This document shows, piece after piece, positions 19,843 to 64,000 of a DNA stretch of 64,000 nucleotides. The notes under the pieces were generated by a model. It made no database searches and had not been told where the DNA came from. It saw only the letters and a program-made list of their open reading frames with translations. Source of the stretch: Alcanivorax sp. DG881 (GTDB lineage: Bacteria > Pseudomonadota > Gammaproteobacteria > Pseudomonadales > Alcanivoracaceae); assembly GCF_000155615.1 (NCBI RefSeq), contig NZ_DS989915.1, positions 2,374,039 through 2,438,038 on the forward strand, in the 5' to 3' direction. A program made the position numbers and the translations under genes. Position 1 is the stretch's first letter, and the number at the start of each line of letters is the position of its first letter.

Positions 19843-20026
19843 CGGTGCATTTTTTCTTTTGGCCATACATTCAATCGGTATGATTTTATTTATTCATGCG
19901 AACAACGAATGGTATTACCAAAAGGCCTTCGCGGCTGGAGTGGAGCCAAATCTTGCAGCTGCAACTGTTTCAAAGCTCATTTTGGCAGCTATAGGGATTG
20001 GAGTTGGCGTGTGGCTGCTCAACTAA
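19829..20026 (+). CDS. Cassette 1 ORF b: second small membrane protein
   Basis: A 65-residue hydrophobic protein with an N-terminal membrane segment (FFLLAIHSIGMILFI) and a C-terminal one (LILAAIGIGVGVWLL), joined by a polar loop. The start at 19829 has GGGAG just before it; an earlier ATG at 19796 would add 11 residues inside the previous ORF. The stop codon is directly followed by the attC site. Function unknown. Confidence 0.6.
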   Translation: MNWISGAFFLLAIHSIGMILFIHANNEWYYQKAFAAGVEPNLAAATVSKLILAAIGIGVGVWLLN

Positions 20027-20028
20027 TA

Positions 20029-20103
20029 GCCTAACAATTCGTGGCAGTTCGCGCCTTTCGGCGCCGGACTCGCTACGCTCGCCGCTGCACAGGGGCGTTA
20101 CGT
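20029..20103 (+). repeat. attC site of cassette 1 (75 bp)
   Basis: R'' GCCTAAC, spacer AATTC, L'' GTGGCAG, then an imperfect stem, L' CTGCAC and R' GTTACGT. L'' pairs with L' when one G is left unpaired (GTG[G]CAG against GTGCAG), the extrahelical base that directs strand choice in attC recombination. Confidence 0.85.
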
Positions 20104-20116
20104 TGCAAGGTGAAGT

Positions 20117-20647: not shown

Positions 20648-20746
20648 CAAGCGGCTGCACCGGATAAATTTCCGCTGTCATCTTTTGTGCATAAAGCCGC
20701 ACAAAAGCCGCCATCAAAAATTTACCCGGTGAGCCGGGCGTTAGGT
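20642..20746 (+). repeat. attC site of cassette 2 (105 bp)
   Basis: R'' ACGTAAC, spacer AAGCG, L'' GCTGCACCGG, L' CCGGTGAGCC and R' GTTAGGT. L'' pairs with L' with one extrahelical G (GGCT[G]CACCGG against GGCTCACCGG), and the stem continues through ATAAATTT/AAATTTAC. Confidence 0.88.
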
Positions 20747-20750
20747 TGTG

Positions 20751-21119
20751 ATGAGATACAAGTGCCAAAATTGTGGTGAGCTTTTCTCTCCCCGTAATGC
20801 GGGATGCGAGGATTGGAGGGAAAAGAAGCTGTCTTTTATATGTCCTCATTGTGGCGTTTATCTAAAAAGGCCTGAGAATTTTATCAAAGAAAAGGGTTGG
20901 AAGGGTGCGGCTCCTACACTGATAAGATATTGCTTGGTAGCATTTGGCTTGCAGTTTTTAGCTATATATCTCGGTGCTAACCATCCATTGGTACTTGTCA
21001 TTGTTGGAGGGGTTGCCTTGATTGCTTTGTTCCTTTACGCATGGAGAGCGCCTGAAGAAGTGAGGCTGGTTGAGGTTATTGTGCCGCAACCTAACAAGAA
21101 GCTCCAGTCCGACCGCTGA
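20751..21119 (+). CDS. Cassette 3 ORF: zinc-ribbon membrane protein
   Basis: A 122-residue protein. A CxxC pair at the N terminus (YKCQNCGELF) and a second CPHCG about 25 residues later form a probable zinc ribbon. Two membrane segments follow (LIRYCLVAFGLQFLAIYLG, LVLVIVGGVALIALFLYAW), ending in a short cytosolic tail. A GTG three bases upstream (20748) could also initiate. The C-terminal codons and the stop lie within the attC site, so the attC stem encodes the last residues. Function unknown. Confidence 0.65.
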   Translation: MRYKCQNCGELFSPRNAGCEDWREKKLSFICPHCGVYLKRPENFIKEKGWKGAAPTLIRYCLVAFGLQFLAIYLGANHPLVLVIVGGVALIALFLYAWRAPEEVRLVEVIVPQPNKKLQSDR

Positions 21120-21145
21120 CGCGGCGGCTGAGCATGGCGTTATGC
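21089..21145 (+). repeat. attC site of cassette 3 (57 bp)
   Basis: R'' ACCTAAC, spacer AAGAA, L'' GCTCCAG, L' CTGAGC and R' GTTATGC. L'' pairs with L' with one extrahelical C (GCT[C]CAG against GCTCAG). This is the shortest complete site of the array and overlaps the 3' end of its gene. Confidence 0.85.
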
Positions 21146-21180
21146 GAGAAAATAAGACAGATCCGCTCTAAGGAACAAGC

Positions 21181-21774
21181 ATGGAAAAACTATTGATCGG
21201 TGTCTCAGGCGTAATCCTAGGTGCAATTCTTACAGTGGCCAGAGAATTCTGGAACGATTATAGAACCAAGAAGAAGAAAGCCCAATTTTTAGCAATCAGG
21301 GTAACTACAATGCTTGATCGTTTTGTTGAAGGCTGCGTTTCAGTCGTAAGTGACGATGGCGAAATGTACGGAAGAGATGAGCAAGGATGTCTACGTGTAA
21401 ACTCAACTACTCCAGTATTAAACTTCGATTCGCTTGATGTTGACTGGCAATCCCTTCCTTTTGATCTTATGTATGAAATTCTTAACTTCCCTTTAGGAAT
21501 CGAAGAGGCCAATGGAATGATTGGCAGTGTTTGTGAACATGTTGCATCCCCGCCCGATTACGAAGAAGGCTTCGAGGAGAGGCATTTCCAATATTCAAAT
21601 CTTGGCCTCCAAGCTTATGAGTTATCAAAGAAGATACGGGAAAGGTATGGCATGCCAAAAAATGAATTCAAGTACTGGAATCCAATTGATTTTCTTGAAA
21701 AAAATAAGAAAGAGATAGATGAGAGAAGAGCTAAACGTGAAGAACGTGCAGCCAAATTTTACCAAAGCGCATAA
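21181..21774 (+). CDS. Cassette 4 ORF: N-terminally anchored unknown protein
   Basis: A 197-residue protein with one N-terminal membrane segment (LLIGVSGVILGAILTVA) followed by a basic stretch (RTKKKKAQ). A long soluble domain follows, and a highly charged C-terminal helix (EKNKKEIDERRAKREERAAK) that may be a coiled coil. No catalytic motif or family is recognised. The stop codon is part of R'' GCATAAC. The gene is AT-rich compared with the host genes. Confidence 0.6.
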   Translation: MEKLLIGVSGVILGAILTVAREFWNDYRTKKKKAQFLAIRVTTMLDRFVEGCVSVVSDDGEMYGRDEQGCLRVNSTTPVLNFDSLDVDWQSLPFDLMYEILNFPLGIEEANGMIGSVCEHVASPPDYEEGFEERHFQYSNLGLQAYELSKKIRERYGMPKNEFKYWNPIDFLEKNKKEIDERRAKREERAAKFYQSA

Positions 21775-21846
21775 CAAGTGGCGGCAGTCAGACCAAATTT
21801 CCGCTCCTCCGTCGCTCCAATTTGCCTGCTGCGCCAGGCGTTAATC
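21769..21846 (+). repeat. attC site of cassette 4 (78 bp)
   Basis: R'' GCATAAC, spacer AAGTG, L'' GCGGCAGTCAG, L' CTGCTGCGCC and R' GTTAATC. Pairing leaves two extrahelical bases (GGCG[G]CAG[T]CAG against GGCGCAGCAG), a classic attC configuration; CAAATT/AATTTG extends the stem. Confidence 0.88.
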
Positions 21847-21861
21847 TCAAAGAGGAAACCC

Positions 21862-22350
21862 GTGAGGGATCTCATAAAAAGAATTCAAAACACTCCTGAT
21901 TGCAGGGTTTTTCCGCCCAAAGGCATTCCCAAAATACCGGATCATTTGTCGCTTCCGTTAGATGTCCAGTCTTTTTATTCATTGGCCGGGGGAGCGGTCC
22001 TATTGCAAAACTCCCTTTCACCGTACGAGATACCTGAGCCCCAGAATTTCGTTCCCTCCAACGAGATTATTTTTCCAGAGGGGTACGACTGGGATTTACC
22101 GGAAAATGATAGGTCATATGATTGGTATGTTGCCGCTAACAGCGGGCCAGAACAATATATTTCGATAGATTTGAATCCAGATAGACTGGGGCGATGCTAC
22201 GATAGCTTTTGGCAACTACATGCAACGGAGGATGCGGAAATCGTAGCACTTAGTTTCCGGGAAATGATTGAGCACCTTTTAGATCATAGAGGTGACGGCC
22301 CGTACTGGGTTGAAGATGGATTTCCGCGTCTTGGTTTTGCCTACGACTAA
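21862..22350 (+). CDS. Cassette 5 ORF: SMI1/KNR4 (SUKH)-like protein
   Basis: A 162-residue soluble acidic protein. The pattern IPDHLSLPLDVQSFYSLAGG, followed about 70 residues on by YISIDLNPDRLGRCYDSFW and a final FREMIEHLLDHRGDG, fits the SUKH fold, common among immunity proteins of polymorphic toxins and in phage/mobile DNA. The GTG at 21862 has AGAGGA 6 bases before it; the frame continues upstream to 21778, but that start would lie inside the previous attC. No toxin partner is present in the window. The identification is by pattern only. Confidence 0.65.
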   Translation: MRDLIKRIQNTPDCRVFPPKGIPKIPDHLSLPLDVQSFYSLAGGAVLLQNSLSPYEIPEPQNFVPSNEIIFPEGYDWDLPENDRSYDWYVAANSGPEQYISIDLNPDRLGRCYDSFWQLHATEDAEIVALSFREMIEHLLDHRGDGPYWVEDGFPRLGFAYD

Positions 22351-50837: not shown

Positions 50838-51716
50838 ATGGCATCAAATCCGGCATCTGTTACCGCCTCCGACCGTCTCACCTTCACCGTTTTTCTGGCG
50901 GTGGCGTTCCATGGCATCCTGATTTTCGGGGTGAGCTTTGCGCCGGAGTTGCAGCGTGCGGCCCCGCATACCCTGGAAGTCACCCTGGCCCAGCATCGCA
51001 GCGACAGCGAGCCGGAAGAAGCGGACTTCATTGCCCAGAGTAATCAGGAAGGCTCCGGTGATCAGGCTGACAAGCAGGAGCTCACCACCACGGAACAGGC
51101 AGATTTTGCCGACAGTAAACTGGAAAACGTGCAGCTCAAGGAGAAAACCACCCGCGAGCGCCGGGAGCGGGTCAGCCAGCAACTGGTAATCACCACCGCC
51201 CGTGACAGTGAGCACAAGGTTAACGCTGACCAGAAAGAAAAGACCGAACCCAAACCCCTGAAAGTGGCCAAGCAGGAAAACCTGCAGGACCTGAGCCAGC
51301 AGATCGCCAGCCTGCAGGCGCGTCTGGACGAACAAAAGCAAGCCTATGCCAAGCGCCCGCGGGTACGGCGCCTCACCTCTGTGTCCGCCAAGGCGCACTT
51401 CGAAGCGGTCTACATCGATGGCTTTCGCCGCAAGGTGGAAGACATGGGTACCCGCAACTTCCCCGCCCGGGCCCTGAACAGCAATACCTATGGTTCTGTG
51501 CGCCTGATGGTAGCGATCCAGAAAGACGGCTCACTGCAAGAAGTGCGGCTGCTAAAGTCTTCCGGCCATAAGTTCCTTGATCAGGCCGCTATCCAGAGTG
51601 TGCGTCTGGCGGCTCCGTTCGATGCGTTTACAGCGGAAATGCGCCGGAACATGGACGTGCTGGAAATTATCCGCACCTGGAAGTTCGACAGGAACAAGCA
51701 AGTATCGTCCCGGTAG
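50838..51716 (+). CDS. TonB-family energy transducer (TonB3-like)
   Basis: A 292-residue periplasm-spanning protein. An N-terminal membrane anchor (LTFTVFLAVAFHGILIFGVS) is followed by a long charged coiled-coil spacer rather than the usual proline-rich one. The C-terminal TonB domain contains YGSVRLMVAIQKDGSLQEVR and LEIIRTWKFD. In P. aeruginosa the tonB3 gene sits at this position next to gshB and is needed for twitching motility, which fits the neighbouring pil-chp cluster. The name is given by position and domain only. Confidence 0.85.
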   Translation: MASNPASVTASDRLTFTVFLAVAFHGILIFGVSFAPELQRAAPHTLEVTLAQHRSDSEPEEADFIAQSNQEGSGDQADKQELTTTEQADFADSKLENVQLKEKTTRERRERVSQQLVITTARDSEHKVNADQKEKTEPKPLKVAKQENLQDLSQQIASLQARLDEQKQAYAKRPRVRRLTSVSAKAHFEAVYIDGFRRKVEDMGTRNFPARALNSNTYGSVRLMVAIQKDGSLQEVRLLKSSGHKFLDQAAIQSVRLAAPFDAFTAEMRRNMDVLEIIRTWKFDRNKQVSSR

Positions 51717-52200
51717 CGTGCAGGCATCATGCCTGCCCAAGCCCTTCCCTTCTCCATCCGGTCTGCGTGCCACCAATGAGTATCGCGCTGGCGGCGTCAA
51801 TTTTCCTGCTTCACGATTGAAGACGGAGGGGGTTGGCGTGCCAGTTATTATGGCGTTAGTGCGGTAAGAAAGTGTTCGGCAGCTGCCCTGAACGAAACAT
51901 CACAAAGGCGAATATAAATCATCAGTGGGCAGCTTCGAGTCAGAGGGATTGCCGGCGTTTTTCCAATGATAGAAGCAGACTATATGGTTGATGATGTTAT
52001 ACAGTTTGCCGAGAGCGAAGCAGGTATGCTGTATTAAAGGTCTGTGCAACGGGCATGTTTTAACATGCAGCGGAGAGGCGTCAGATATGCAATGTGATGC
52101 TCTCCTGGCAGCCTTGCTGGCCATCGTGCGCGTGGGAAGATGAATTATCCAGGCTTTCCTTGGCAAGATAGATACCTTAACCGTGCTTTAAGCGATACCT
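51717..52200. other. 484-base left flank of the inserted cluster
   Basis: No supported gene. It holds a palindrome GCAGGCAT-C-ATGCCTGC just after the tonB stop (51720-51736, no T-run) and GCATGTTTTAACATGC at 52053-52068. The composition shifts from GC-rich to AT-richer around 51830-51900, which is where the insertion boundary probably lies. No tRNA, integrase or clear direct repeat was seen. Confidence 0.45.
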
Positions 52201-52782
52201 ATGGCAAGAAAAAAGAGCTTCAATAAAGACGATGTTCTGGAGCGTGCAATGAACCTGTTCTGGAAGCAGGGGTTTCACGCCACCAGCATGCAAGATATTG
52301 TTCAGAACGTCGGGCTGAGCCGCTCTAGTCTTTATGAGTCGTTTGGTAGCAAACAGGGGCTTTTTGACCAGGCTCTGAGTAATTACTGCCGCACTAACAG
52401 GGAGGGAGTTAAGGCCCTGTTGAGTAATGAGAAAAGCGTCAAGTCAGGAATAAGAAACCTGCTTGAGTCATCTATCCACTGCACAATTAGTGATGCAGAC
52501 AAGAAAGGCTGTTTTGTGGTCAATTCAACCACAGAGCTTGTACCGGGGGATGACGAAATGCTGAAGGCGCTTTCAAAAAATAGAGCGTCTTTTGAGAAAG
52601 TGTTTTTCGAATTTCTGCAGAAAGGTCAGGCGACAGGTGAAATACCGCCGAATAAAGACATAAAAACACTGTCGGGTTTGATATATACCGTTTTTTCAGG
52701 GCTCAATGTGATTGCCAAGCTGGAGAAAAGCCCGAAAAAGTTGATGGCCCAGATTGATCAAATTGTTGGCTTGCTGGATTGA
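52201..52782 (+). CDS. TetR-family regulator of the inserted cluster
   Basis: A 193-residue repressor. The DNA-binding head KDDVLERAMNLFWKQGFHAT, then SMQDIVQNVGLSRSSLYESF and GSKQGLFDQAL, is canonical. The C-terminal domain (FVVNSTTELVPGDDEMLKAL) matches the TetR_C subgroup that often controls oxidoreductases responding to quinones or other electrophiles. It converges with the SDR gene and probably recognises the GGAATGATCGTTC sites found before the SDR and before the flavoprotein operon. Confidence 0.88.
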   Translation: MARKKSFNKDDVLERAMNLFWKQGFHATSMQDIVQNVGLSRSSLYESFGSKQGLFDQALSNYCRTNREGVKALLSNEKSVKSGIRNLLESSIHCTISDADKKGCFVVNSTTELVPGDDEMLKALSKNRASFEKVFFEFLQKGQATGEIPPNKDIKTLSGLIYTVFSGLNVIAKLEKSPKKLMAQIDQIVGLLD

Positions 52783-53094
52783 TGTCCGTTGCCTGAGTCG
52801 ACAAATTCGCCTTGGCCTCCCGGTGGGGATAGTAAGAAAGCGAAGCCATTTTGTTGGGTTTTCCGCACGAAATTTCCAGAACCGTCTGTTCAAAGAAGCT
52901 CTGCATGACGCATGCGCCATTGCATCAATGATGCGGTCTAAATAGCGCCGATCCCCGTTTTGCTCTTTCCTCTCTCGCCAGAATACGCCACATCCCTGTT
53001 CTTTTTGATCCTTAATGTAAATGCAAGAGCTATGCATGTGGGAGTGGTCATGCATAGCGTTTTCTCAATGAGAGCTAACAGTCTGACGAATCTG
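52783..53094. other. 312-base gap between converging TetR and SDR genes
   Basis: No supported gene, RNA or clear terminator. Short frames exist but lack ribosome binding sites and family features. The stretch is of mixed composition. Confidence 0.4.
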
Positions 53095-53853
53095 CTAGCC
53101 GGCAAGAATCGGATTGATATTGGCGCCGCCGTCAATGTTGAATTCAGCGCCGGTGACAAAGGCCGCGTCGTCAGAAGCCAGATAGGAAACCAGGCTGGCT
53201 ATCTCGTCGGGCTGCGCAAAGCGCTTGAGGGGAATATTCGCCTGGAGTGCCTGGGCAAAGCCGCCAAGCTCTTCCTGTGACATGCCTGTCTTTCCGAAAA
53301 TCGGGGTTTCAGTCGGACCAGGATTGACAGCATTGACACGGATTTTTCTGGGTGCAAGCTCTGTGGCTGCTGTTCGAGTGTAAGCATTGAGTGCTGCTTT
53401 TGAAGCAGCATAAACAGCGGTCATGGGCATCCCGGTATAGGCATTGATCGATGACAAATTAATGATTGACGCCCCTTCATTGAGAACGGGAAGGAGCTTC
53501 TCAATGGTGAAGATGGCGCCTTTAAAGTTAATCCCCATTTGTTGGTCAAACATTTCTTCCGAAATCTGACCTATTGGTGCCGGTGCGAAGATGCCGGCAT
53601 TAACAAACAGAATGTCGATCGTGCCAAACTCCCTCTTGACTTGATCGACCAGATTATCGATCTGGGACAGGTCCTGAACGTCAGCAACAGCACCGATAAC
53701 AGAGAGGGACTCAGCAGCGGAAGACACCTTGTCAGCTGACCGGCCGGTGATCATTACTTGCGCGCCGAGTTCAGAAAACTTTTTGGCAGTGGCAAAGCCA
53801 ATGCCGCTGTTGCCGCCCGTAATGACAGCCTTCTTTCCTTTCAGGTCATTCAT
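53095..53853 (-). CDS. Short-chain dehydrogenase/reductase
   Basis: A 252-residue classical SDR. It has the cofactor motif TGGNSGIGFATAKKF (TGxxxGIG), NAG in VNAGIFAPA, a Ser in NLSSINAYTG and the catalytic YxxxK in YAASKAALNAY. The C-terminal GAEFNIDGG is the family end signature. The start at 53853 is preceded by AAGGA; the frame extends to 53889 but without support. It is transcribed away from the biosynthetic operon, from a promoter overlapped by an operator, so it is probably a regulon member for detoxifying or reducing a pathway carbonyl. Confidence 0.9.
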   Translation of the reverse strand: MNDLKGKKAVITGGNSGIGFATAKKFSELGAQVMITGRSADKVSSAAESLSVIGAVADVQDLSQIDNLVDQVKREFGTIDILFVNAGIFAPAPIGQISEEMFDQQMGINFKGAIFTIEKLLPVLNEGASIINLSSINAYTGMPMTAVYAASKAALNAYTRTAATELAPRKIRVNAVNPGPTETPIFGKTGMSQEELGGFAQALQANIPLKRFAQPDEIASLVSYLASDDAAFVTGAEFNIDGGANINPILAG

Positions 53854-53900
53854 CCTTTTTCCTTGGTTTGTGTATTTAATGCAGATCATTTCCTTTATTT

Positions 53901-53947
53901 AGGAATGATCGTTCCTGAAAGTATCATGACGTTATTTGGCAGGTCAA
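53901..53947 (-). promoter_or_regulatory. SDR promoter with TetR operator 1
   Basis: On the minus strand -35 TTGACC (53942-53947) and -10 GATACT (53920-53925) are 16 bp apart. Immediately downstream lies the near-perfect palindrome AGGAATGATCGTTCCT (53901-53916), where a repressor would block the transcription start. Confidence 0.72.
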
Positions 53948-54286
53948 ACAGGGCCTGTTTAGTGTGTAAACAAATACAGGGAAAGTGCGAATAGGATCCC
54001 ATTAATGATCACAGAAGGTGCAAATCGTGGGCATTCAGGTAATAGTTGCGCTGGCACTCAGAATGCTTTCGGCGGTGCCTATATTCTGAATATTATTCAG
54101 ATTTTTCTTTGGTACGAGTGTGCCTTTTGTTGAGAAAGAAAGGTTGTCCGGCTAGATAGAGTGCCCAGGAAAGGGCACAAAACTTCAGGTAGCACAGGGA
54201 TGGTGCAAGAAAACCTACGGGTGCTCATATATTTAAATTCTCTGTTGCAAAAGAAATTTTGCTTATGTAGTTTGTTGCCCAATACT
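53948..54286. other. Divergent regulatory region of the cluster
   Basis: AT-rich DNA between the SDR promoter and the second operator. No gene is supported. It must contain the promoter for the flavoprotein operon, but no clear -35/-10 pair was fixed. Confidence 0.4.
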
Positions 54287-54299
54287 GGAATGATCGTTC
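54287..54299. promoter_or_regulatory. TetR operator 2 before the biosynthetic operon
   Basis: GGAATGATCGTTC is identical to the core of the operator at 53902-53914. It lies 39 bases before the first start codon of the operon, which makes a shared regulator very likely. Confidence 0.75.
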
Positions 54300-54338
54300 T
54301 TGTTTGTTTTTGGTTGGACTCCTAAAGGAACTAGGATA

Positions 54339-55586
54339 ATGAGAATTGGTATTGTGGGGGCCGGTGTAGGAGGGCTGACGCTGGCGTTATCTCTGATAGA
54401 TAAGGGCTACAGAGACATACAGATCTACGAAGCGGCAGAAGAGATAAGCGATCTCGGTGTAGGCATTAATATTCTTCCTCATGCCATGCAGGTTATGAGC
54501 GGGCTTGGTTTACTGGCCCCGCTTGTGGCGGCCAGCGTGGAAACGGGCACCCTGAGTTATTACACCCAATGGGGGCAGTTGATCCTTTCAGATGAGAGAG
54601 GGATAAACGCAGGCTACCGTTGGCCTCAGATCTCTATTCATAGATCACAATTAATACAGATACTGCACGCGGCCGTAGTCGAGCGATTAGGTATAGATAG
54701 AATCAAGGCAGGTCACCGTTGTACGGGGTTTTCGTCCACCCCAGGGGCGCCTGCCCAGGCCTACTTTGAGAATGGCCAGGAAGAATTTGATTTACTGATT
54801 GGCTGTGATGGGATTCATTCTGCAATAAGAAAAGAGATGTATCCCAATGAAGGTGATCCCAAATGGGACGGGATTACAATGTGGCGGGCGGTGTCCTATA
54901 TGCCGGCCAACACGATCTTCGAATCCATGATAATTGCCGGAAAATCCGAGCACAGAATGGTTATGTACCCCATCGAGAAGGGCGGGGATGGCCGTTATCT
55001 GGTGAACTGGGTTGCTAAATACAAGACCGCTTCAGCACAGGAAATGCCGCGCCAGGACTGGATACACCAGGCTGAAGATAGCGAGATACCAGAAGATTTC
55101 CGAAAGTTTGATTTTCTGATGGCATCTGAGCTGATCGCTAATGCCGAAGTGATATACAAATACCCTCAGGTAGATCGTGACCCCCTTCCTTCCTGGAATC
55201 TGAATAACGTCACCTTGCTTGGTGATGCCGCTCATCCAATGTACCCCTCTGGCTCCAATGGTGCGTCGCAAGCGATTCTGGATGCTGAATCGTTGTCGCA
55301 GTCACTCATGAGTGAGCCCGGTATCGGCTTGGCGCTTGATCGGTACGATCAAGAGAGAAGGCCAGCGACATCTGAAATCGTCATGAAAAACCGACGGGCA
55401 GGGCCCGAGCGATGTATTGATCTTGTTGAGCAAAGAGCTCCACTTGGTTTTGATCACATTGATGATGTCATCGCTCATGAGGAGCTGCAGTTCATTCTTA
55501 AAGATTACAAGAAAGTCGCGGGGTTTGATCGTGAAAGTCTGGACAAGGTCGAGAGAAAAGCAGCGACCTTGATGGGTGCCAAGTAA
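54339..55586 (+). CDS. PhzS-like FAD-dependent aromatic hydroxylase
   Basis: A 415-residue single-component class A flavoprotein monooxygenase. It has the FAD motif IGIVGAGVGGLTLALSL at the N terminus, the DG motif LIGCDGIHSAIRKEMYP, and the GD motif LLGDAAHPMYPSGSNGASQA. Segments such as WPQISIHRSQL, LVNWVAKY and VDRDPLPSWNL closely follow PhzS of P. aeruginosa, which performs decarboxylative hydroxylation of a phenazine carboxylate. No phenazine core genes are present, so a different aromatic acid, perhaps 4-hydroxybenzoate, is inferred. It is the first gene after the operator. ATG at 54339 follows AAAGGA. Confidence 0.88.
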   Translation: MRIGIVGAGVGGLTLALSLIDKGYRDIQIYEAAEEISDLGVGINILPHAMQVMSGLGLLAPLVAASVETGTLSYYTQWGQLILSDERGINAGYRWPQISIHRSQLIQILHAAVVERLGIDRIKAGHRCTGFSSTPGAPAQAYFENGQEEFDLLIGCDGIHSAIRKEMYPNEGDPKWDGITMWRAVSYMPANTIFESMIIAGKSEHRMVMYPIEKGGDGRYLVNWVAKYKTASAQEMPRQDWIHQAEDSEIPEDFRKFDFLMASELIANAEVIYKYPQVDRDPLPSWNLNNVTLLGDAAHPMYPSGSNGASQAILDAESLSQSLMSEPGIGLALDRYDQERRPATSEIVMKNRRAGPERCIDLVEQRAPLGFDHIDDVIAHEELQFILKDYKKVAGFDRESLDKVERKAATLMGAK

Positions 55587-55622
55587 AAATAAAGAAAAGA
55601 GAAGGGATGTCAGGAGCGGACA

Positions 55623-56273
55623 ATGGATGCCGATAAGGAAGGAAGTAAGGAAGGAAGTGGTTATAGCCACTATCGTTCAAGTCTTGAGTGTGGTGGCCAG
55701 GAAACTGCTAATGCGGACTATTACCCTGATAAGCTGTTGATCAATAAAAACATTAACAAAAACAAATTAAGCCACCTTCAGAAAATACTGTTGATGACTG
55801 ATGGCACGGTGACTGAGCTTCTAGAACATCTTTCTCGCGAGCCGATTGTAATCGAGAAATTGTATCAGGCGATTATCAATAACCATGATGAGGTTCCCGC
55901 ATCACATGCTCACGGCGTATACCAGAATGAAGGCCCTGTATTGATAAGAAAGATAATTCTTAAAGGGAAGCATACAGATAAAAACTATATATATGCTGAG
56001 TCAACAATACTCATTGATAGGCTTCCTGAATGTTTTCGTAATGAATTAATTGATTCGAAAACACCAATTGGAAAGCTTTGGTCAAAGCATAAGCTTGAAA
56101 CATATAAAACAGACTTTTCCGCAGAAAGTGAAAATTCCAATGTTGAGATATCTGGGTACCTTTCGGTTCCAGTCGACAGTGAATTGCTGTCCCGAACATA
56201 TAGTGTTTATTCCTGCGGTGAAAAATCAATGATCATAACCGAGAAGTTCTCTTCGTCTCTTTTTGTTAGTTAG
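55623..56273 (+). CDS. Chorismate lyase-like protein (UbiC/DUF98 fold)
   Basis: A 216-residue protein. After a variable polar N terminus of about 45 residues, the segment LSHLQKILLMTDGTVTELLE starts the chorismate-lyase fold. VLIRKIILKG, then YIYAESTILIDRLPE and TPIGKLWSKHKLET, and a late Glu in SMIITEKFSSSLF, match the conserved blocks of the DUF98/UbiC family. The reaction would be chorismate to 4-hydroxybenzoate plus pyruvate. AGGAG lies 7 bases before the ATG. It follows the PhzS-like gene by 36 bases. Identity is by pattern; remote UTRA-like ligand-binding function is the alternative. Confidence 0.75.
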   Translation: MDADKEGSKEGSGYSHYRSSLECGGQETANADYYPDKLLINKNINKNKLSHLQKILLMTDGTVTELLEHLSREPIVIEKLYQAIINNHDEVPASHAHGVYQNEGPVLIRKIILKGKHTDKNYIYAESTILIDRLPECFRNELIDSKTPIGKLWSKHKLETYKTDFSAESENSNVEISGYLSVPVDSELLSRTYSVYSCGEKSMIITEKFSSSLFVS

Positions 56274-56325
56274 TTATCGACTGCTGCCGGCTAGGCGGTT
56301 TGTGTTCATTATGGGAAGAATGAAT

Positions 56326-57879
56326 ATGGAATCTTCAGACAATATCTATGAGTGTATTGTTGTTGGTGCTGGCCCTGGTGGCATCGTTGCCACGAAAGAG
56401 TTGTTGGAGAACGGATTCGACAACGTGCTCTGCCTGGAACAGTCCGGTGGCATTGGTGGGGTCTTTGCAAAAGGGTATGACAATCTTGAATTAACGTCTT
56501 CGGCAACTTTCAGTATGTTCTCTGATTTTCTTAACAAGCCAGGAGAAGAAAACCATTTCTGGTCAAAAGAAGAGGCCGTGTCTTACTGGAAACGATATGC
56601 GGATCGATTTGATGTAACTCAAAAAATACTCTTTGACACCAAAGTGACCAAGGTAAGCCGCAAGGATGAGGGGGAATGGGTTCTGGAAACGAATTCCCAG
56701 GCGTTTCTGGCCAGGAGGATTGTTCTGGCTACCGGAAACAATAGCGCTGAAAGTTATCCTGGTTGGACTGAAAAATTAACTGATATCGATTATTCGCATT
56801 CAAAGAAATATAAAAACGCAAGTCAGTATGCCGGGAAAAGGGTCCTGGTGGTCGGGGGCGGGGAGTCAGCTTCAGATATTGCTCTTGAGGTTTCTCAGGT
56901 TGCTGATCAGTGCTGGATAAGCTTAAGGGAAAGTGCCGGCTGGGTCGTGCCTAGAAAACGTGGAAAGTATGCCACTGATATTTCAACGCACAGAGGTGTA
57001 TGGGATCTTCCTCGTCACTATGGGGCTTATTTTACTCGACGTTCAATTGAAATTGAAAAATCAAAGAATGACCCTCTTTTCGATGCTGTTGCGATGCTCA
57101 ATAGCCGTATTCCCGACCCAAAAGGAATATGGAGTACTTATGGAACAAAGACCATAGCGCTCGCGGAGGCGATAGCTCATTACAACTGTAAAGTTGTTGA
57201 GGAAGTCACGGAGGTTGAAGACGGCGGTAAACATCTGGTTTGTGCTGATGGAATGAGACTGGAAGATATTGATGCTGTTGTCTTTTCGACAGGCTATAAA
57301 AACATCACCAATTTCATGCCTGAAGAATACCGTCAGTGCGACCCCAGGCATCTTTACAAGCATATGATCCATAAAGATATGGGTGAGTCACTGTGTTGGA
57401 TCGGCGTCGCCAGGCCTGGCTTTGGAAGCCAGTTTCCAATAATGGAGATGCAGGCGCGGTATTTTGCGCTGCTTTGTGCGGGTCGGTTGAAGCTGCCTGA
57501 CGAAGCGGCTATGACGGAATCAATAAAGCAGGACTATGAGGACAACATGGCGCAGTTTGGCAAAAACGCAAAACGGATCCGGAGCCTGGTGGATTACTTC
57601 AGGTACATGGATGGCCTTGCCGACATCATCGGCTGCAAGCCACCGTTAAAGGAATATTTTAGGCGTCACCCGCTTATCTGGCTAACTATTATGTATGGCC
57701 CGACTCAGGCTACCCAGTATCGGTTAGTCGGCCCAGGAAGCAAGAAAAGGGAGGCACACAAAATAATAAAGCAGTTGCCAGTGAGCAAGTTCAACAATGT
57801 GGTAAAGATTGGCTTCAGGATGCGTTTGGCCCATGCGCTGGACTCGATTAACGGTTTTGCTCAACAGAAGCTTCTGTGA
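56326..57879 (+). CDS. FMO-type flavoprotein monooxygenase 1
   Basis: A 517-residue class B flavoprotein. It has the FAD motif VVGAGPGGIVATKELL near the N terminus, an NADPH motif VVGGGESASDIALEV near residue 175, a diverged FMO fingerprint (DIDYSHSKKYKNAS) just before it, and a VFSTGYKN motif late. The block EMQARYFALLC is shared with the second FMO of the cluster, so the two are related. ATG at 56326 is chosen for GGGAAG 7 bases upstream; earlier in-frame ATGs at 56311 and 56320 have poorer spacing. FMO-like halogenases (Bmp5) are one precedent for using 4-hydroxybenzoate. Confidence 0.85.
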   Translation: MESSDNIYECIVVGAGPGGIVATKELLENGFDNVLCLEQSGGIGGVFAKGYDNLELTSSATFSMFSDFLNKPGEENHFWSKEEAVSYWKRYADRFDVTQKILFDTKVTKVSRKDEGEWVLETNSQAFLARRIVLATGNNSAESYPGWTEKLTDIDYSHSKKYKNASQYAGKRVLVVGGGESASDIALEVSQVADQCWISLRESAGWVVPRKRGKYATDISTHRGVWDLPRHYGAYFTRRSIEIEKSKNDPLFDAVAMLNSRIPDPKGIWSTYGTKTIALAEAIAHYNCKVVEEVTEVEDGGKHLVCADGMRLEDIDAVVFSTGYKNITNFMPEEYRQCDPRHLYKHMIHKDMGESLCWIGVARPGFGSQFPIMEMQARYFALLCAGRLKLPDEAAMTESIKQDYEDNMAQFGKNAKRIRSLVDYFRYMDGLADIIGCKPPLKEYFRRHPLIWLTIMYGPTQATQYRLVGPGSKKREAHKIIKQLPVSKFNNVVKIGFRMRLAHALDSINGFAQQKLL

Positions 57880-58835
57880 TGAATATTCGAGTCGCTGACA
57901 TAAGGAAAAGTGTCCTTATTATTCCCAATATTGGGAATTTGACAGTAATGCGTATCGTTTTTTATATGCTTAGCTGTGTCATTCTTTTTAGTCTTGGTGA
58001 GTCCATGCTGAGCCAACAGCCAGCAGATGAATCCTTCATGACCGGTCGTGCTTTATTGTTCTTCTTAATGGGTATTGCTGGTGCGACCATTGCCAGCTCT
58101 ACAGGCGCTGGAGGTGGAATTGTCTTTCTGCCGATATTTATCAGCCAAGGGTTTTCCCCGCTCGAATCGTTGTCCACGAGCATTGCGATACAGTGTTTTG
58201 GCATGAGCTCCGGCGCCTTGGCATGGGTTCAGTATCAGAATAGTGAAAAGGTAAATTTTCCTAATCAGTGGAAAGGGTTTTATCCAGTTCTTCTGGTCGC
58301 TTTACTCTCATCTTGTGCGGGTATTCTTCTGACGCTACGTCTATTGCCCGATCCATATATAGACATAGAACTCCTTTTCTCCGTTTTTTCTTTGTTTGTC
58401 GGTTCATACATTCTGGCAAGAACACTAAAAGTTACTGTTGAATTGAAAGGAAGGGAAAGCGCGCTTTCAAGATTGGAGCTGATGGGGCTTGTTCTGGTTA
58501 GCTTTTTCGGGGGCGTGATTACAGCATGGATATCAGTGGGTGTCGGGGAGTTGCTGCTGATTTTCCTCATCATTATTGGTGTGCGTCTTAATGTGGCCGT
58601 CGCCGTGGCGGTGTGTGTAAGTGCGGTTAGCGTTCTTGCGGCAGTTCCCTACTTTATTTCTAAGCAAGCTATCAGCCTCGATGTCCTGGTTTTCGCTGCT
58701 CCAGGCGCGTTGATAGGGGGCTTTCTCGCTCGACATCTGGCGGTGTGGCTCGGAGCACACAAGCTAAAGATCGCCGCTTCCGGATGGATAATATTGAGTT
58801 CATTACCATACTTAACGTTTCACTTTATAGATTAG
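57879..58835 (+). CDS. TauE/SafE-family permease
   Basis: A 318-residue inner-membrane protein with about eight hydrophobic segments. The repeat signature GATIASSTGAGGGIVFLPIF and its second-half counterpart around ITAWISVGVGELLLIFLI fit TauE/SafE proteins, which move sulfite, sulfonates or organic anions. The start codon overlaps the stop of FMO 1 by one base, so it belongs to the same operon and may export the product or an intermediate. The first 20 residues are atypical, and a later start is possible. Confidence 0.8.
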   Translation: MNIRVADIRKSVLIIPNIGNLTVMRIVFYMLSCVILFSLGESMLSQQPADESFMTGRALLFFLMGIAGATIASSTGAGGGIVFLPIFISQGFSPLESLSTSIAIQCFGMSSGALAWVQYQNSEKVNFPNQWKGFYPVLLVALLSSCAGILLTLRLLPDPYIDIELLFSVFSLFVGSYILARTLKVTVELKGRESALSRLELMGLVLVSFFGGVITAWISVGVGELLLIFLIIIGVRLNVAVAVAVCVSAVSVLAAVPYFISKQAISLDVLVFAAPGALIGGFLARHLAVWLGAHKLKIAASGWIILSSLPYLTFHFID

Positions 58836-58882
58836 ATCTTGATCGTCTCAATGTCTGGGCTTTTAACTAACAGGGGTTTGCA

Positions 58883-59695
58883 ATGGAAATGCGCAGCAAA
58901 GTAAGCATAGGGATAATGGTAATCGGGATGGCGTGGATGCCGTTAGACCTCAAGGCCCATGACTTTTCAAGCCAGCGAGTGGATGCTTCCGGTCAGCTTA
59001 AGCAGGACTGGTACTGGCAAAAAAACAAAGGACGCGGTCGAGGCCGAGATCACGGACATGGTCATGGTCATGGTCACGGCGGAGGTGGGGATGACAGTGG
59101 AAATCATGAGCCTGATATCACTGTGACGTATACCCCCGCAGATGCGCTTGATAACGATTTTGTCACGGAAAGCGGTGAGCTTATCCAGGATATTATCCCG
59201 GACCGGGAGATAGCTCGTCTTCATGCTGCCAGTGAGTATCAGACTATTCCGCTGGAGCGGCATCTTTTACCCGCCTACTACTATTTACCTGCCATGAACA
59301 CGGTTGAAGATTACGTCACAACTGAGGATGAATTCGTCAACATTAACCCGGCTCCTGGTGAGTGGGTGCGCATAATGGAAGGCAAGCGTCACGGCTTCCA
59401 GTCAACCACAGTGGGCATTACCTATACCCAGCAAGGTGGCGGCGCGCCGCTGCATACCCATGAAAGTGAAGAAACCCATGTTCTCAAAGAAAATGGGAAA
59501 GTCAGATACCAATTGGGCAATGAGGTCTTTGAAGTTGAAGGGCCCTACGTGATTAATATCCCGCCCATGGTTCCCCATGCCTTCATGAACCTTAAAGAAG
59601 ATCCCATCGAGCTGGTTGTCTTTTTCCCCTATAACAAATGGGAAGCTGATTTTGTTCAGCATGACGATGCAATGAACTTCTTTACGTTACCCTGA
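58883..59695 (+). CDS. Secreted cupin protein with His/Gly-rich linker
   Basis: A 270-residue exported protein. A signal peptide ends near MPLDLKA. A linker of GRGRGRDHGHGHGHGHGGGG follows, able to bind metal. The C-terminal half holds a cupin: GGGAPLHTHESEETHVLKEN supplies the HxHxxxxE metal ligands, and PPMVPHAFMN supplies the last His. Periplasmic cupins of this kind may be dioxygenases or isomerases acting on a phenolic product. It lies 47 bases after the TauE gene. No close family name is known to me. Confidence 0.78.
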   Translation: MEMRSKVSIGIMVIGMAWMPLDLKAHDFSSQRVDASGQLKQDWYWQKNKGRGRGRDHGHGHGHGHGGGGDDSGNHEPDITVTYTPADALDNDFVTESGELIQDIIPDREIARLHAASEYQTIPLERHLLPAYYYLPAMNTVEDYVTTEDEFVNINPAPGEWVRIMEGKRHGFQSTTVGITYTQQGGGAPLHTHESEETHVLKENGKVRYQLGNEVFEVEGPYVINIPPMVPHAFMNLKEDPIELVVFFPYNKWEADFVQHDDAMNFFTLP

Positions 59696-59702
59696 TTATC
59701 CA

Positions 59703-59733
59703 GCCTCTCACCCATTTGTTTATGTGAGGGAGG
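59703..59733 (+). promoter_or_regulatory. Imperfect hairpin after the cupin gene
   Basis: CCTCTCAC and GTGAGGGAGG pair imperfectly in the 153-base gap before the reductase gene. No T-run follows, so it may stabilise the upstream mRNA or attenuate the operon rather than terminate it. Confidence 0.4.
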
Positions 59734-59848
59734 CGTCAGAATAAATTTCTCTTAATAGCGGATGGTAATGGCTGTTATGGCCTTGCTTTGCCATTTTTAT
59801 GCCTTGGCAGTGTATCCGCGAAACTTGAAAACAAGGAAGTGACTCCTG

Positions 59849-60451
59849 ATGAGCACACTACTTATGGATTGTAGCGCCAGAAACGAGTTGTCGATAAGCA
59901 GGGAGCTGACTCGTTATCTTGCTGAAGGCCTGGGTGAATCGATTACTGATCGTGATTTAGGGAATACCTCCTTTCCTTCTCTTTCTGGGCAAGATTTGAT
60001 TGATCTGCATAACGCGAAGCGTATTGATCGGCCTAGTCTGGTCAGGCATCACTTTTTTGCAGATCAGTTTATCGATGAGCTCCGTAGCGCCACTTCGCTT
60101 GTGGTTGGGGTGCCAATCTATAACTTTACGGTTCCTGCTGTTTTGAAACAGTGGGTCGACTATGTGCTCCAACCCGGTGTGACATTCAAGTACGAGTCGG
60201 GGAGCGCGGTTGGGCTTTGTGACAATCTCCGTAATGTCTACATCGTGACCTCTTCGGGAGGCACTCCGGTAGGTGGAGAAAAAGACTTTGCAAGCTCTTA
60301 CTTCAGCTTTGTTTGCAAATTTATCGGCGCTAGAAACATCGAGCTTATTGATGCGGGCGGATCAAAAAGGGAGCGAGAGCAAATTGTTGTTCAGGCAAGA
60401 TCCCGAATTGATCAAATTCTGTCGAATCAGCGGCTTGTCGCCATCAAGTAA
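59849..60451 (+). CDS. azoR: FMN-dependent NADH:quinone/azo reductase
   Basis: A 200-residue flavodoxin-like enzyme. It has the start block STLLMDCSARNELSISRELT, the substrate/FMN loop GVPIYNFTVPAVLKQWVDYV (P-x-YNF), and the second FMN loop VTSSGGTPV. AzoR-type enzymes reduce quinones by two electrons and detoxify electrophiles; in this cluster a self-protection or biosynthetic quinone-reduction role is plausible. It lies between the cupin and FMO 2 genes. Confidence 0.9.
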   Translation: MSTLLMDCSARNELSISRELTRYLAEGLGESITDRDLGNTSFPSLSGQDLIDLHNAKRIDRPSLVRHHFFADQFIDELRSATSLVVGVPIYNFTVPAVLKQWVDYVLQPGVTFKYESGSAVGLCDNLRNVYIVTSSGGTPVGGEKDFASSYFSFVCKFIGARNIELIDAGGSKREREQIVVQARSRIDQILSNQRLVAIK

Positions 60452-60501
60452 TCAGGCTTTTCAGCCTTGGTATTAACCGTAATGAATAAACGGGAATTAT
60501 T

Positions 60502-62241
60502 ATGAAAGTCTGTGTTATTGGTGCTGGCCCTTCCGGGTTAACGACAATCAAACAATTGCTTGATGAAAGCCATGATGTCACTTGCTTTGATGCCAACGAA
60601 AGTGTCGGTGGCATATGGTATCGAGGTGGTGATGATGGGCAGCAGATGAAGGCCTATGACAACATGATGCTTACTGTTTCTATGAAAATGATGTCTTTTT
60701 CTGATTTTATTTTCAAAGACGGCAGGAAGTTTACGGACCATAAAGGATATCTTCGTTATCTTGAAGAGTATTCTGATAAATTTGGCCTTGCCAGACACAT
60801 ACAATTCAACAGTCTCGTCAAGGAAGTGATCCGAGAAAGTGATGGCTCCTGGATAGTAAAGGTAAAGGTGGGGGATAAAAGAGTGTCGTCCCACCGCTTT
60901 GAGGCTGTTGCAATTTGCAGTGGACCGTTTAAGACGGCCAATACTGAAATTAGTGAAATTGATGGCTTCACTGGCGAGGTTGTCCACTCCAAGTCTTATC
61001 GGAATAGTAAAGACTTTGAGGGTAAGAAAGTTTTGGCGATCGGCCTGGCTGAGTCGGGTGCGGATATGCTTAGAGAAGTTTCCAATGTTGCCCAGAAATG
61101 CGTGGTTTCGATCAGGTCCCATACTTTTCTTATTCCCCGTCTTATCTACGGGAAGTATTCGACGGACACGTTAACCACCCGGTCTCATCATTATGAAATG
61201 TGGAACAGGGCTTCGAAAATAAAATTCCAGATGAAATCCTATAGCCAGGATAGTTGGGCCCTCAGGAATATTTTTCTGGGGGTTGCGAATGCCTATGGTC
61301 TGGCCTCGATCCCGGCTAACTTTCTTTACAGAAAGATAATGGGTGATAAAAAAAATAATGATCCTGGAAAGAATAATATGGGCCAGGATAGCGACCCATC
61401 AAAAATTGACTATGATACAAAAAATGAAAAAGAGGTGGTGGATTTCATTAACAAATGGAATAAAAAATCCCATCATGACAAAGGGAATTGGTCTCAAAAG
61501 ATAATTTTCTCAAAGAATGTAAGTTTTGTCCCTAATATCCTTAACAACAAGCTTGTTGTTAAGGATTGTGGCATTGGAAGGGTTGAGGGAAATACGATTT
61601 ACTTTAATGATTCAACTTCGGAAGAATTTGACAAGATTCTGTTGTGTACGGGGTTCAAGAAAGATTTTTCGTTGCTGAGCAATGTGGAGATTAAAGACAA
61701 TAACGTTCGAAATCTCTACAAGCATGCTTTTCATCCGGATCATAATGGGCGCCTGGCCATGATCGGCTTTGTTCGTCCTATTAGTGGCGGCATTCCAATT
61801 TGCTCAGAAATGCAGGCGCGCTATTTTGCCCTTTTATGTAGTAATAAGATCAATCTCCCCGAAGACGTTGGCGATCGAATTGAAAGAGAGAAGGATTGGG
61901 AAGAGCAGTGGATGTGCCTCAGTCCGAATCATACTGAATCCATGCCTTCTCAGATCATGTTTCTGGACTCTATTGCAAAAGAAATTGGTTGCCACTACCC
62001 GTTTCATAAACTGATCACCAAGCCTCGGCTACTAGTAAGGTTATGGTTTTATTCCTTTAACCAGTCTTGCTACCGAATGACCGGACCTCATCATCATTAC
62101 GATGAGGCAGTTAAAGATATTATGACTGAGGAAGTTCCTCTTCATGACTACGGGTTTATGCTGACGATGATAGCGCTCTCTTTCATGCCATCATTTGTAC
62201 ACCCCAAAAATCTCGATTTCCAATACGGTGTAAAGAACTGA
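60502..62241 (+). CDS. FMO-type flavoprotein monooxygenase 2
   Basis: A 579-residue class B flavoprotein. It has FAD motif VIGAGPSGLTTIKQLL, the exact FMO fingerprint FTGEVVHSKSYRN near residue 155, an NADPH site with an unusual LAIGLAESGADMLREV, and LLCTGFKKDF further on. It shares EMQARYFALLC with FMO 1 but carries an extra Lys/Asn/Asp-rich insertion around residues 280-330. Group members include hydroxylases, Baeyer-Villiger enzymes and single-component halogenases such as Bmp5; I cannot tell which applies. A clean upstream gap of 50 bases follows the azoR gene. Confidence 0.86.
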   Translation: MKVCVIGAGPSGLTTIKQLLDESHDVTCFDANESVGGIWYRGGDDGQQMKAYDNMMLTVSMKMMSFSDFIFKDGRKFTDHKGYLRYLEEYSDKFGLARHIQFNSLVKEVIRESDGSWIVKVKVGDKRVSSHRFEAVAICSGPFKTANTEISEIDGFTGEVVHSKSYRNSKDFEGKKVLAIGLAESGADMLREVSNVAQKCVVSIRSHTFLIPRLIYGKYSTDTLTTRSHHYEMWNRASKIKFQMKSYSQDSWALRNIFLGVANAYGLASIPANFLYRKIMGDKKNNDPGKNNMGQDSDPSKIDYDTKNEKEVVDFINKWNKKSHHDKGNWSQKIIFSKNVSFVPNILNNKLVVKDCGIGRVEGNTIYFNDSTSEEFDKILLCTGFKKDFSLLSNVEIKDNNVRNLYKHAFHPDHNGRLAMIGFVRPISGGIPICSEMQARYFALLCSNKINLPEDVGDRIEREKDWEEQWMCLSPNHTESMPSQIMFLDSIAKEIGCHYPFHKLITKPRLLVRLWFYSFNQSCYRMTGPHHHYDEAVKDIMTEEVPLHDYGFMLTMIALSFMPSFVHPKNLDFQYGVKN

Positions 62242-62273
62242 CATCAGTGCATGGATGCTTAAGGATATTGAAA

Positions 62274-63368
62274 ATGGAACTCAATAATACGGACAATTTG
62301 AATATTGAATCCCAGTTCATGCTGGTCAACCCTGAACAGCTTAAAACATCTATGCCAGTGTCTGAATCGGGTGCAAAAACGGTTAGCGATAGTCGCCGTG
62401 TCATCAAGAACATCCTTGAAAAAAAGGATCACCGCCTCATTGCTATTGTTGGCCCTTGCTCTATCCATGATGTGGAATCGGCACTTGAGTATGCAAAAAG
62501 ATTAAAAGCGCTCCCCGAGAAGCTTTCCGACACGCTCTATATTGTTATGCGGGTTTATTTCGAGAAGCCCAGAACTACTGTGGGGTGGAAAGGGCTTATC
62601 AATGACCCTCACCTGGATAACAGTTTCAGGATAGAAGAAGGGTTGCAGATCGCGAGAAAACTCCTAATGGAGATCACTTCAATGGGGGTTCCTGTGGCTA
62701 CAGAAGCTCTCGATCCGGTAGCACCACAGTACCTGTCTGATTTGATCAGCTGGTATGCCATTGGTGCGCGAACCACCGAATCCCAGACCCATCGGGAAAT
62801 GGCCAGTGGTCTCTCGTCGCCGGTGGGGTTCAAGAATGCCACTGACGGTAGTTTGATGGTGGCGGTTAATGCGCTGAAGTCTTCTTCCCATCCTCATCGC
62901 TTCCTTGGCATCAATGGTCAGGGGCAGGTGGCGGTTATCAAAACCAAAGGCAATGATTATTCACATATCGTGCTGCGTGGTGGTGATGGTGGGCCAAATT
63001 ACGACAGGCAGAGTGTCGGGAAGTGTGAGGCTGTATTAGCGGATGCCGGGTTGGAGCCCACCATTATGGTGGATTGCAGTCACGCCAATTCAGGGAAGGA
63101 TCCCACACGCCAGCCCTTGGTGGTGAGTGATATTGCCTCCCAGATTCAGCAAGGTAATCGCTCCGTCGTTGGCTTCATGATGGAAAGCCATCTTAACTTT
63201 GGCAATCAAAGCCTCGACGTTAAAGGCAAGGAAGAGCTTCGCCACGGGGTTTCCATAACGGACTCTTGCCTTGACTGGTCAAGCACGGAGAGCTGCCTGA
63301 TCAATTTAGCCAATGATATTCGGGTGGCATTGAGGGCCCGCTGCCAGTCGGAGCTTGAGCCCGCCTGA
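62274..63368 (+). CDS. 3-deoxy-7-phosphoheptulonate (DAHP) synthase, class I
   Basis: A 364-residue AroF/G/H-type enzyme, first step of the shikimate pathway (PEP plus erythrose-4-phosphate). It has IAIVGPCSIHD, MRVYFEKPRTTVGWKGLIND, the metal/PEP segment GARTTESQTHREMASGLSSP, and the VDCSHANSGKDP metal site. The ATG at 62274 has AAGGA 9 bases before it. It lies 32 bases after FMO 2, so it is the last gene of the operon. A dedicated isozyme beside a chorismate lyase argues that the pathway draws on chorismate; whether it is feedback-sensitive cannot be read directly. Confidence 0.92.
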   Translation: MELNNTDNLNIESQFMLVNPEQLKTSMPVSESGAKTVSDSRRVIKNILEKKDHRLIAIVGPCSIHDVESALEYAKRLKALPEKLSDTLYIVMRVYFEKPRTTVGWKGLINDPHLDNSFRIEEGLQIARKLLMEITSMGVPVATEALDPVAPQYLSDLISWYAIGARTTESQTHREMASGLSSPVGFKNATDGSLMVAVNALKSSSHPHRFLGINGQGQVAVIKTKGNDYSHIVLRGGDGGPNYDRQSVGKCEAVLADAGLEPTIMVDCSHANSGKDPTRQPLVVSDIASQIQQGNRSVVGFMMESHLNFGNQSLDVKGKEELRHGVSITDSCLDWSSTESCLINLANDIRVALRARCQSELEPA

Positions 63369-63557
63369 AAGGTGAGGGGCGGATCAGCGATAGCTCCAGA
63401 CTTTGCGAGTCGGGCTTGGTCCGAGGGAAGGCGGATCTGGCCGGGCTTGGTCTTCCAGCGCTTGCCCTCCCTGCTTCATGTACGAAATTCTCCCAGGTTG
63501 CCCCTCTCGGGGCTCCTTGAGCTTGCAGCGCTCCTCCCCTCCCCGGATACTGTGCCC

Positions 63558-64000
63558 ATGGAAAACACACCCTTGAAGCACCAGTTGCTGGTGGCCATGC
63601 CACAAATGGCTGACCCGGACTTTGAACATTCCGTTACCTATATCGTTGAGCACAGCAGCGAGGGCGCCATGGGGCTGACGCTCAACCGCCCGGTGCAGAT
63701 CAGCCTGGGTGATATCCTCAGCGACATGGATATTGAAATCGAAGTGCCGCCCTCCGAGCGGCATCGCGTGGTGGCCGGTGGGCCGGTCCAGCAGGAAGCC
63801 GGCTTTGTGCTGCACAGTGCCGCCACCCGCTGGCACGCCAGCACTGTCCTCAGTGATGGCCTGATTCTGACCACCAGCCGTGACATTCTCGAAGCCATCG
63901 CCATTGGTGAAGGCCCGGAGCAGTCCCTGATTTGCCTGGGCTATGCGGGTTGGGATGCCGGGCAGCTGGAGCAGGAGCTGGTGGATAACGCCTGGCTCAG
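63558..64000 (+). CDS. yqgE: YqgE/AlgH-family protein (partial, cut by window end)
   Basis: The first 147 residues of a DUF179 protein (usual length about 185): the opening LKHQLLVAMPQMADPDFEHS, then SEGAMGLTLNRPVQI and RHRVVAGGPVQQEAGFVLHS are the family blocks, with SLICLGYAGWDAGQLEQEL near the cut. The function is unknown. In P. aeruginosa the gene directly follows tonB3, so its position here shows that about 12 kb lies between normally adjacent genes. No stop codon occurs before the window end. Confidence 0.9.
   Translation, partial: MENTPLKHQLLVAMPQMADPDFEHSVTYIVEHSSEGAMGLTLNRPVQISLGDILSDMDIEIEVPPSERHRVVAGGPVQQEAGFVLHSAATRWHASTVLSDGLILTTSRDILEAIAIGEGPEQSLICLGYAGWDAGQLEQELVDNAWL

Follow-up and report, generated by a model that had tools for sequence, protein, structure and literature searches.

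The phenol arm of pentabromopseudilin is built by the chorismate lyase Bmp6 together with the brominase Bmp5 (PMC5577590), the latter converting p-hydroxybenzoic acid into 2,4-dibromophenol through a decarboxylative bromination (PMC8407142). As late as 2023, the paper on AetF named Bmp5 as the only other known single-component flavin halogenase (PMC10306068). In Microbulbifer sp. RZ01, a cluster brings together a DAHP synthase (BP607), a Bmp5-like enzyme (BP608), a chorismate lyase (BP609) and a P450 (BP610), and no dibromophenol was detected with BP608 alone (PMC10579414). Here we analyse a block of ten genes that shares part of this equipment, located between tonB and yqgE in a 64,000-nucleotide stretch of Alcanivorax sp. 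DG881 (contig NZ_DS989915.1), which we call the window and to which coordinates refer unless another locus is named.

Our best explanation, which we regard as probable, is that the block is a horizontally acquired, self-regulated biosynthetic cluster, with a pathway leading from chorismate through 4-hydroxybenzoate (4-HBA) to an oxidised phenol or (hydro)quinone. Its gene set, its insertion at this site, its co-inheritance in other genomes, its second copies of shikimate-linked enzymes and its common candidate operators are matters of direct observation. A scan of open reading frames (ORFs) found all ten genes intact and uninterrupted at 52201-63368, each protein has a Pfam match above the curated cut-off, and the gene order is repeated in a second genome, with a seven-gene core in a third; the block delimited by an initial annotation of the window is thus real. 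It is also, as described there, AT-richer than its surroundings (GC 0.468 at 51720-63510 versus 0.589 at 1-51700). Along the eight plus-strand genes of the operon, the gaps of about 36, 49, -4, 47, 153, 50 and 32 bp are consistent with one transcription unit.

The insertion is seen by comparison with the genus. Among 17 genomes, including that of the window, the loci were located through TonB and the 16 others aligned to the window with blastn. On the tonB side the alignments extend to 51691-51710, and on the yqgE side they resume from 63516-63543. The two blocks lie at most 300 bp apart in all 16 congeners, one of which (G007) has a TonB 97% identical, and about 11.8 kb apart in the genome of the window alone. 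The inserted segment of about 11.8 kb hence spans 51711..63516, approximate ends that are the last and first bases aligned to the congeners. It is flanked by glutathione synthetase and TonB on one side and by an AlgH-like/YqgE protein (PF02622) on the other. Around its ends (51700-63560), no terminal repeat was seen among the 20 largest of 51 direct families and the 25 longest of 33 inverted pairs, and the 64-kb window contains no tRNA. Three scans of viral contigs gave no relative; plasmids gave no match for the lyase or the cupin, and one flavin monooxygenase (FMO) with 31% identity, on a Vibrio plasmid among unrelated neighbours. Another AT-rich stretch of the window (GC 0.45-0.47) lies at 19001-22000.

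The same genes travel together elsewhere. One congener, G004, carries all ten in the same order (57-83% identity) at a different genomic site, where a sigma-70-like (RpoD-like) gene is seen by eye 2-3 kb downstream and a dnaG-like gene in locus L026; a transketolase gene, additional to the ten, is inserted there between those of TetR and the short-chain dehydrogenase/reductase (SDR). A genome from another order, G760, has TetR, SDR, cupin, TauE, FMO1, lyase and PhzS-like genes in one block (51-73% identity), and AzoR, FMO2 and DAHP synthase were not found within the 20 kb examined around this core. The G760 block additionally encodes an AhpD-like protein, which begins with a signal-like sequence and has no Pfam match, and the block is AT-rich as well (GC 0.31-0.38 versus 0.38-0.46 in the flanks examined). 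Outside these genomes the genes are rare. The lyase was present in 7 of 143 relatives, that of the window included, and the five loci beyond the two carriers show none of the other nine genes within stretches of 7.6-20 kb. At E <= 1e-50, FMO1 matched 1 of 368 other Gammaproteobacteria sampled (G760 itself), none of 397 other genomes sampled from the phylum and none of four congeners of G760. FMO2 at E <= 1e-60 matched none of 389 others in an order sample from which its carrier G004 was evidently not drawn. Because of the empty site in congeners, the gene order co-inherited at other sites and a 12-bp sequence common to the clusters, we regard the block as one transferred, probably self-regulated unit.

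Some other observations concern the surroundings and distribution of these genes. Both carriers have a lipoprotein-like gene close to the cluster, and the two are distantly related (23% identity, E 1e-13). In the genome of the window it lies past yqgE (L024:683-2092), at a gap in the alignments to the four congener loci long enough to cover this position; in G004 it follows the DAHP synthase gene (L012:17180-18688). A 3.6-kb contig (L020, CAJXUM010000943.1), binned in a metagenome-assembled genome of an uncultured Lewinella, contains an FMO2 stretch 100% identical over 250 residues, with the end of FMO1 and AzoR readable in one frame. It is most likely a mis-binned contig from the species of the window or a very near one, and hints at such a species in that metagenome.

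In each of the three clusters, the 12-bp sequence, GAATGATCGTTC, stands upstream of both the SDR gene and the PhzS operon. In the window it occurs on the plus strand at 53903..53914, 13 bp upstream of the start codon of the divergent SDR (53095..53889, minus strand; adh_short_C2; 83% and 73% identical to its counterparts in G004 and G760), and at 54288..54299, 39 bp upstream of the PhzS-like gene, whose start we corrected to the ATG at 54339. The other sites begin at 7504 and 7767 in L012 (G004) and at 5876 and 11587 in L023 (G760). This sequence accounts for every string of at least 7 bases that the six upstream regions of 150 bp have in common. Genome-wide, its exact form occurs twice in the genome of the window, three times in G004 and twice in G760, so that six of the seven occurrences are cluster sites, and a control pattern had no occurrence in any of these genomes. 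The neighbouring TetR-family regulator (52201..52782, plus strand; TetR_N/TetR_C_13) has a cysteine, Cys104, in a GCFVVN motif conserved in all three clusters, which we take to resemble the sensing cysteine of NemR. This TetR may bind GAATGATCGTTC before the SDR and the PhzS operon and let go on sensing the product or an electrophile, and the candidate operator predicts a regulon of two promoters. Consensus promoters in the window are no more frequent than expected by chance (15 versus 16.8), and terminators are in slight excess (17 versus an expected 12.0, sd 3.2); neither was used.

The lyase gene (55623..56273) belongs, as had been proposed, to a chorismate lyase family, which is not the UbiC type but the Rv2949c-like one (PF01947; 55.7 bits, cut-off 22), predicted to convert chorismate into 4-HBA. 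Arg109 and Glu207, which presumably correspond to the catalytic Arg and Glu of UbiC, are invariant in all eight aligned sequences, so that the enzyme, for which loss of activity had been considered, looks intact as far as its sequence tells. Its PDB match is 2nwi (E 1.9e-11), it shares 23-35% identity with the other five relatives in the order, and a separate UbiC is encoded elsewhere in the genome of the window. Another of these Rv2949c-like lyases (L013:3128-3634 in G079; 35% identical) lies, by eye, in a different natural-product locus, near ADC/anthranilate synthase-like, thioesterase-like, efflux-type transporter and carrier-protein-like ORFs.

At the other end of the operon, the DAHP synthase (62274..63368; AroFGH type, class I; DAHP_synth_1, PF00793) scores 491.7 bits against the aroFGH equivalog TIGR00034 (cut-off 173.2) and shares 59.6% identity with the closest paralogue that the genome encodes. 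The concern that it could be the only housekeeping isozyme does not hold on the sequence evidence: both carriers in the genus have four PF00793 members, versus three in 14 of the 15 non-carriers and two in the remaining one, counts in which not every member is a DAHP synthase, since KDO-8-phosphate synthase belongs to the same family. Its nearest PDB chain is of the Tyr-sensitive AroF type, and Asn8, a residue with a role in AroF, is kept; we therefore do not claim a feedback-free enzyme. Strong transketolase matches (E below 1e-150; weaker ones are other enzymes) number two in G004 and one each in the genome of the window, G007, G015 and G760, and the cluster copy of G004, 61% identical to the other one, is therefore not a recent duplicate. 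The cluster thus has second copies of both its shikimate-linked enzymes, a lyase beside UbiC and an extra DAHP synthase, and these, together with the transketolase of G004, support the biosynthetic, chorismate-fed character suggested by the initial annotation.

From this gene set we infer the individual reactions, their order, the product, its export and the binding of TetR. The DAHP synthase of the operon would raise the flow into the shikimate pathway, and the Rv2949c-like lyase would turn chorismate into 4-HBA, which is likely the first intermediate. The PhzS-like protein (54339..55586; FAD_binding_3), a group A FAD monooxygenase, would then oxidise 4-HBA, most likely by a decarboxylative hydroxylation giving hydroquinone. 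This step is proposed by analogy with the reaction of PhzS, itself a decarboxylative hydroxylation: the PhzS-like proteins of the three clusters exceed the cut-off of the PRK07538 subfamily (NCBIfam, 400) with 482.9 (window), 495.8 and 535.5 bits, and the best PDB chains, 2rgj/3c96 (E 2.6e-71), are those of PhzS. FMO1 and, in the larger version of the cluster, FMO2 could modify the ring further by oxygenation or halogenation. The AzoR-like FMN quinone reductase (59849..60451; Flavodoxin_2), with the FMN-dependent NADH:quinone oxidoreductase 8h4j as its best PDB match (E 1.7e-19), and the SDR may handle the quinone form. The TauE/SafE-type membrane protein (57876..58835; PF01925, 88.1 bits, cut-off 32.6) is a candidate exporter, and the cupin (58883..59695; Cupin_2, PF07883, 29.7 bits, cut-off 27.2) would act outside the cytoplasm. 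By eye the cupin has a signal-like N-terminus, and its metal-ligand residues His191, His193, Glu197 and His232, the usual pattern of four, are intact and invariant in the three clusters; a single-sequence structure prediction (mean pLDDT 34) was not used. Of the operon for a 4-HBA-derived phenol, hydroquinone or halophenol originally proposed, the biosynthetic and chorismate-fed part stands and 4-HBA is likely, and the product and the lyase activity keep the rank of predictions.

Several findings weigh against this explanation. The activities of all ten proteins are predicted from sequence alone, and the roles of TauE and cupin are guesses. The lyase reaches 34.2 bits against an NCBIfam chorismate-lyase cut-off of 175, and its counterparts in G004 and G760 have no NCBIfam match at 1e-10, a limit that the hit of the window itself (2.1e-8) would also miss. 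The PhzS-like subfamily is broad and does not fix a substrate: 88 plasmid records match, all below 60% identity (41-46% among the 20 matches listed). As the G760 core is without a DAHP synthase in the stretch examined, the argument from supply cannot be carried over to the core. With one mismatch allowed, two hits of the 12-bp sequence are also reached in 14 of 100 shuffled versions of the 64-kb window, so that the window alone is not beyond chance (3 of 200 shuffles do so for L012 and again for L023), and the weight of the candidate operator comes from its position and its conservation in three genomes, not from the hit count of the window. The third exact site of G004 precedes, by eye, an OmpA-like gene and may reflect chance or a wider regulon, and in all three loci the TetR gene itself has no site within one mismatch upstream.

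The most serious rival, tentative but possible, is a halophenol version, where FMO1, FMO2 or both would be single-component halogenases of the Bmp5/AetF type. They would act either on 4-HBA, which would lose CO2 on bromination, or on hydroquinone, and the product would be a bromophenol or bromohydroquinone. Both are class B flavin monooxygenases (PF00743): FMO1 (56320..57879, with several in-frame starts, of which the ATG at 56320 is the probable one) is 74% and 65% identical to its counterparts in G004 and G760, and FMO2 (60502..62241) is 78% identical to that of G004. The FxG typical of the FMO fingerprint is present in FMO2 and missing from FMO1. The best structural matches of both are structures of ancestral FMOs (AncFMOs), and halogenation by either seems possible. 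The AetF paper assigns Bmp5 and AetF to subgroup B2, together with the proteins closest to them in structure, AncFMOs included, and gives for it the motifs GXGXXG (FAD), GXGXXG/A (NADP) and a shared C-terminal YRLXG (PMC10306068). FMO1 fits this consensus throughout (GAGPGG, GGGESA and YRLVG, the last within a C-terminal QYRLVGP); FMO2 fits it in the FAD motif (GAGPSG) and departs at the third position in the NADP motif (GLAESG) and in YRMTG, which reads YRLTG in G004. Marine clusters in which a Bmp5-type FMO accompanies a DAHP synthase and a chorismate lyase speak for the same version (PMC10579414).

A lysine is the further point for halogenation. Lys277 of Bmp5 and Lys258 of AetF are located on an insertion within the NADP-binding domain, and ancestral FMOs do not have this residue (PMC10306068). 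Lys276 of FMO1 (numbered from the codon at 56323) and Lys338 of FMO2 share one alignment column, which holds Lys in 9 of 11 sequences (the three FMO1, the two FMO2 and four from loci without the cluster) and Val in AncFMO5 and L060. It might match the catalytic lysine of Bmp5/AetF; the alignment, however, is without Bmp5, and plain sequence alignment is said to fail for these lysines (PMC10306068). This Lys also occurs in the four FMOs encoded at other loci, of which two belong to one genus, and it may then mark just a clade; no P450 is found among the ten proteins by Pfam. An FMO profile search of 390 genomes of the order (E <= 1e-40) matched 13, including that of the window, and eight of the other 12 loci were examined (L054-L060 and L065, leaving out L061-L064). 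There was no Bmp5 sequence among these matches and loci, no P450 by eye in the short flanks of the eight, and tblastn of the ten window proteins plus the G004 transketolase on them returned FMO1/FMO2 matches alone. The best-scoring FMO outside the window in this sample (L054:1432-3270, G281) adjoins, by eye, phenylalanine-4-hydroxylase-like and pterin dehydratase-like genes, which suggests another uncharacterised aromatic FMO. A still more specific proposal, which we consider unlikely, joins 4-HBA from the lyase, hydroquinone from the PhzS-like enzyme, FMO1 and FMO2 as new single-component halogenases dependent on the conserved lysine, export, a periplasmic metal cupin and feedback by a cysteine-sensing TetR on GAATGATCGTTC in the synthesis of a halogenated hydroquinone or quinone.

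The remaining rivals fare worse. An operon for the catabolism or detoxification of an environmental aromatic or sulfur compound, with monooxygenases, SDR, cupin and azoreductase under TetR, is improbable. Most of the enzyme classes present are common in catabolic operons, and a TetR, an SDR and a quinone reductase usually occur together for detoxification, but the dedicated chorismate lyase, the extra DAHP synthase and the transketolase of G004 have no obvious place in a breakdown pathway and therefore argue for biosynthesis. That the cluster supplies additional 4-HBA for ubiquinone or some other constituent of the cell, its oxygenases serving unrelated ends, is very improbable: 4-HBA is the ubiquinone precursor, and its level would rise with the lyase and the DAHP synthase, but the genome has its own UbiC, the operon lyase is without a match in 15 of the 16 other congeners, and no UbiA-type match occurs among the ten proteins. 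That these are chance neighbours in an AT-rich island, as low GC and sporadic occurrence could suggest, is hardly credible given an order conserved at different sites in two genomes, a core in a third from another order, and common candidate operators.

In a biosynthetic cluster of this kind, supply is clearly provided for by DAHP synthase, chorismate lyase and, in one copy, transketolase. The product is compact and testable, and the cluster contains no polyketide synthase or nonribosomal peptide synthetase genes, so that standard genome mining may overlook such clusters. The FMOs, if halogenating, would join the very few single-component flavin halogenases characterised so far and would link bromophenol-type chemistry to quinone sensing; the halogenated-hydroquinone proposal, if true, would represent a branch of marine bromophenol chemistry that does without a P450 and handles and senses quinones with parts of its own.

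Compared with known systems, the cluster shares single elements with several. The lyase resembles the Rv2949c type in its family score and conserved Arg and Glu, and differs in lying in an oxygenase operon, whereas Rv2949c is located in a glycolipid locus. With the PhzS-type decarboxylative hydroxylases the likeness is that of the PhzS-like protein, in subfamily and best structures; no phenazine-type family occurs among the ten proteins, and the substrate here is presumably 4-HBA. A PADLOC search returned weak desaturase matches alone, for the PhzS-like protein and FMO2. The cluster for 3,6-dihydroxy-1,2-benzisoxazole in Photorhabdus and Vibrio is likewise low in GC, probably transferred and thought to start from 4-HBA or salicylate, but a ring-hydroxylating dioxygenase, of which there is none among the ten, is proposed for its DhbBC (PMC11481567). 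No described cluster with the full ten-gene set was found in the open-licence PMC literature, among the matches listed. The wider statement of the initial annotation, that no cluster of this gene set is described, was too strong, as DAHP synthase, chorismate lyase and a Bmp5-type FMO occur side by side in Microbulbifer sp. RZ01 (PMC10579414). The nearest described kind is that of the bmp and 4-BP clusters (Pseudoalteromonas, Marinomonas, Microbulbifer sp. RZ01), with which the block has in common a predicted chorismate lyase and a flavin monooxygenase akin to the Bmp5 class, and whose P450 is absent here; relative to them it adds the PhzS-like enzyme, a second FMO, TauE, cupin, AzoR, SDR and TetR, and its lyase is of PF01947. 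The pairing of supply genes with a Bmp5-type FMO is therefore already described, and what appears new is the P450-free combination with a PhzS-like enzyme, second FMO, cupin, TauE, AzoR and SDR.

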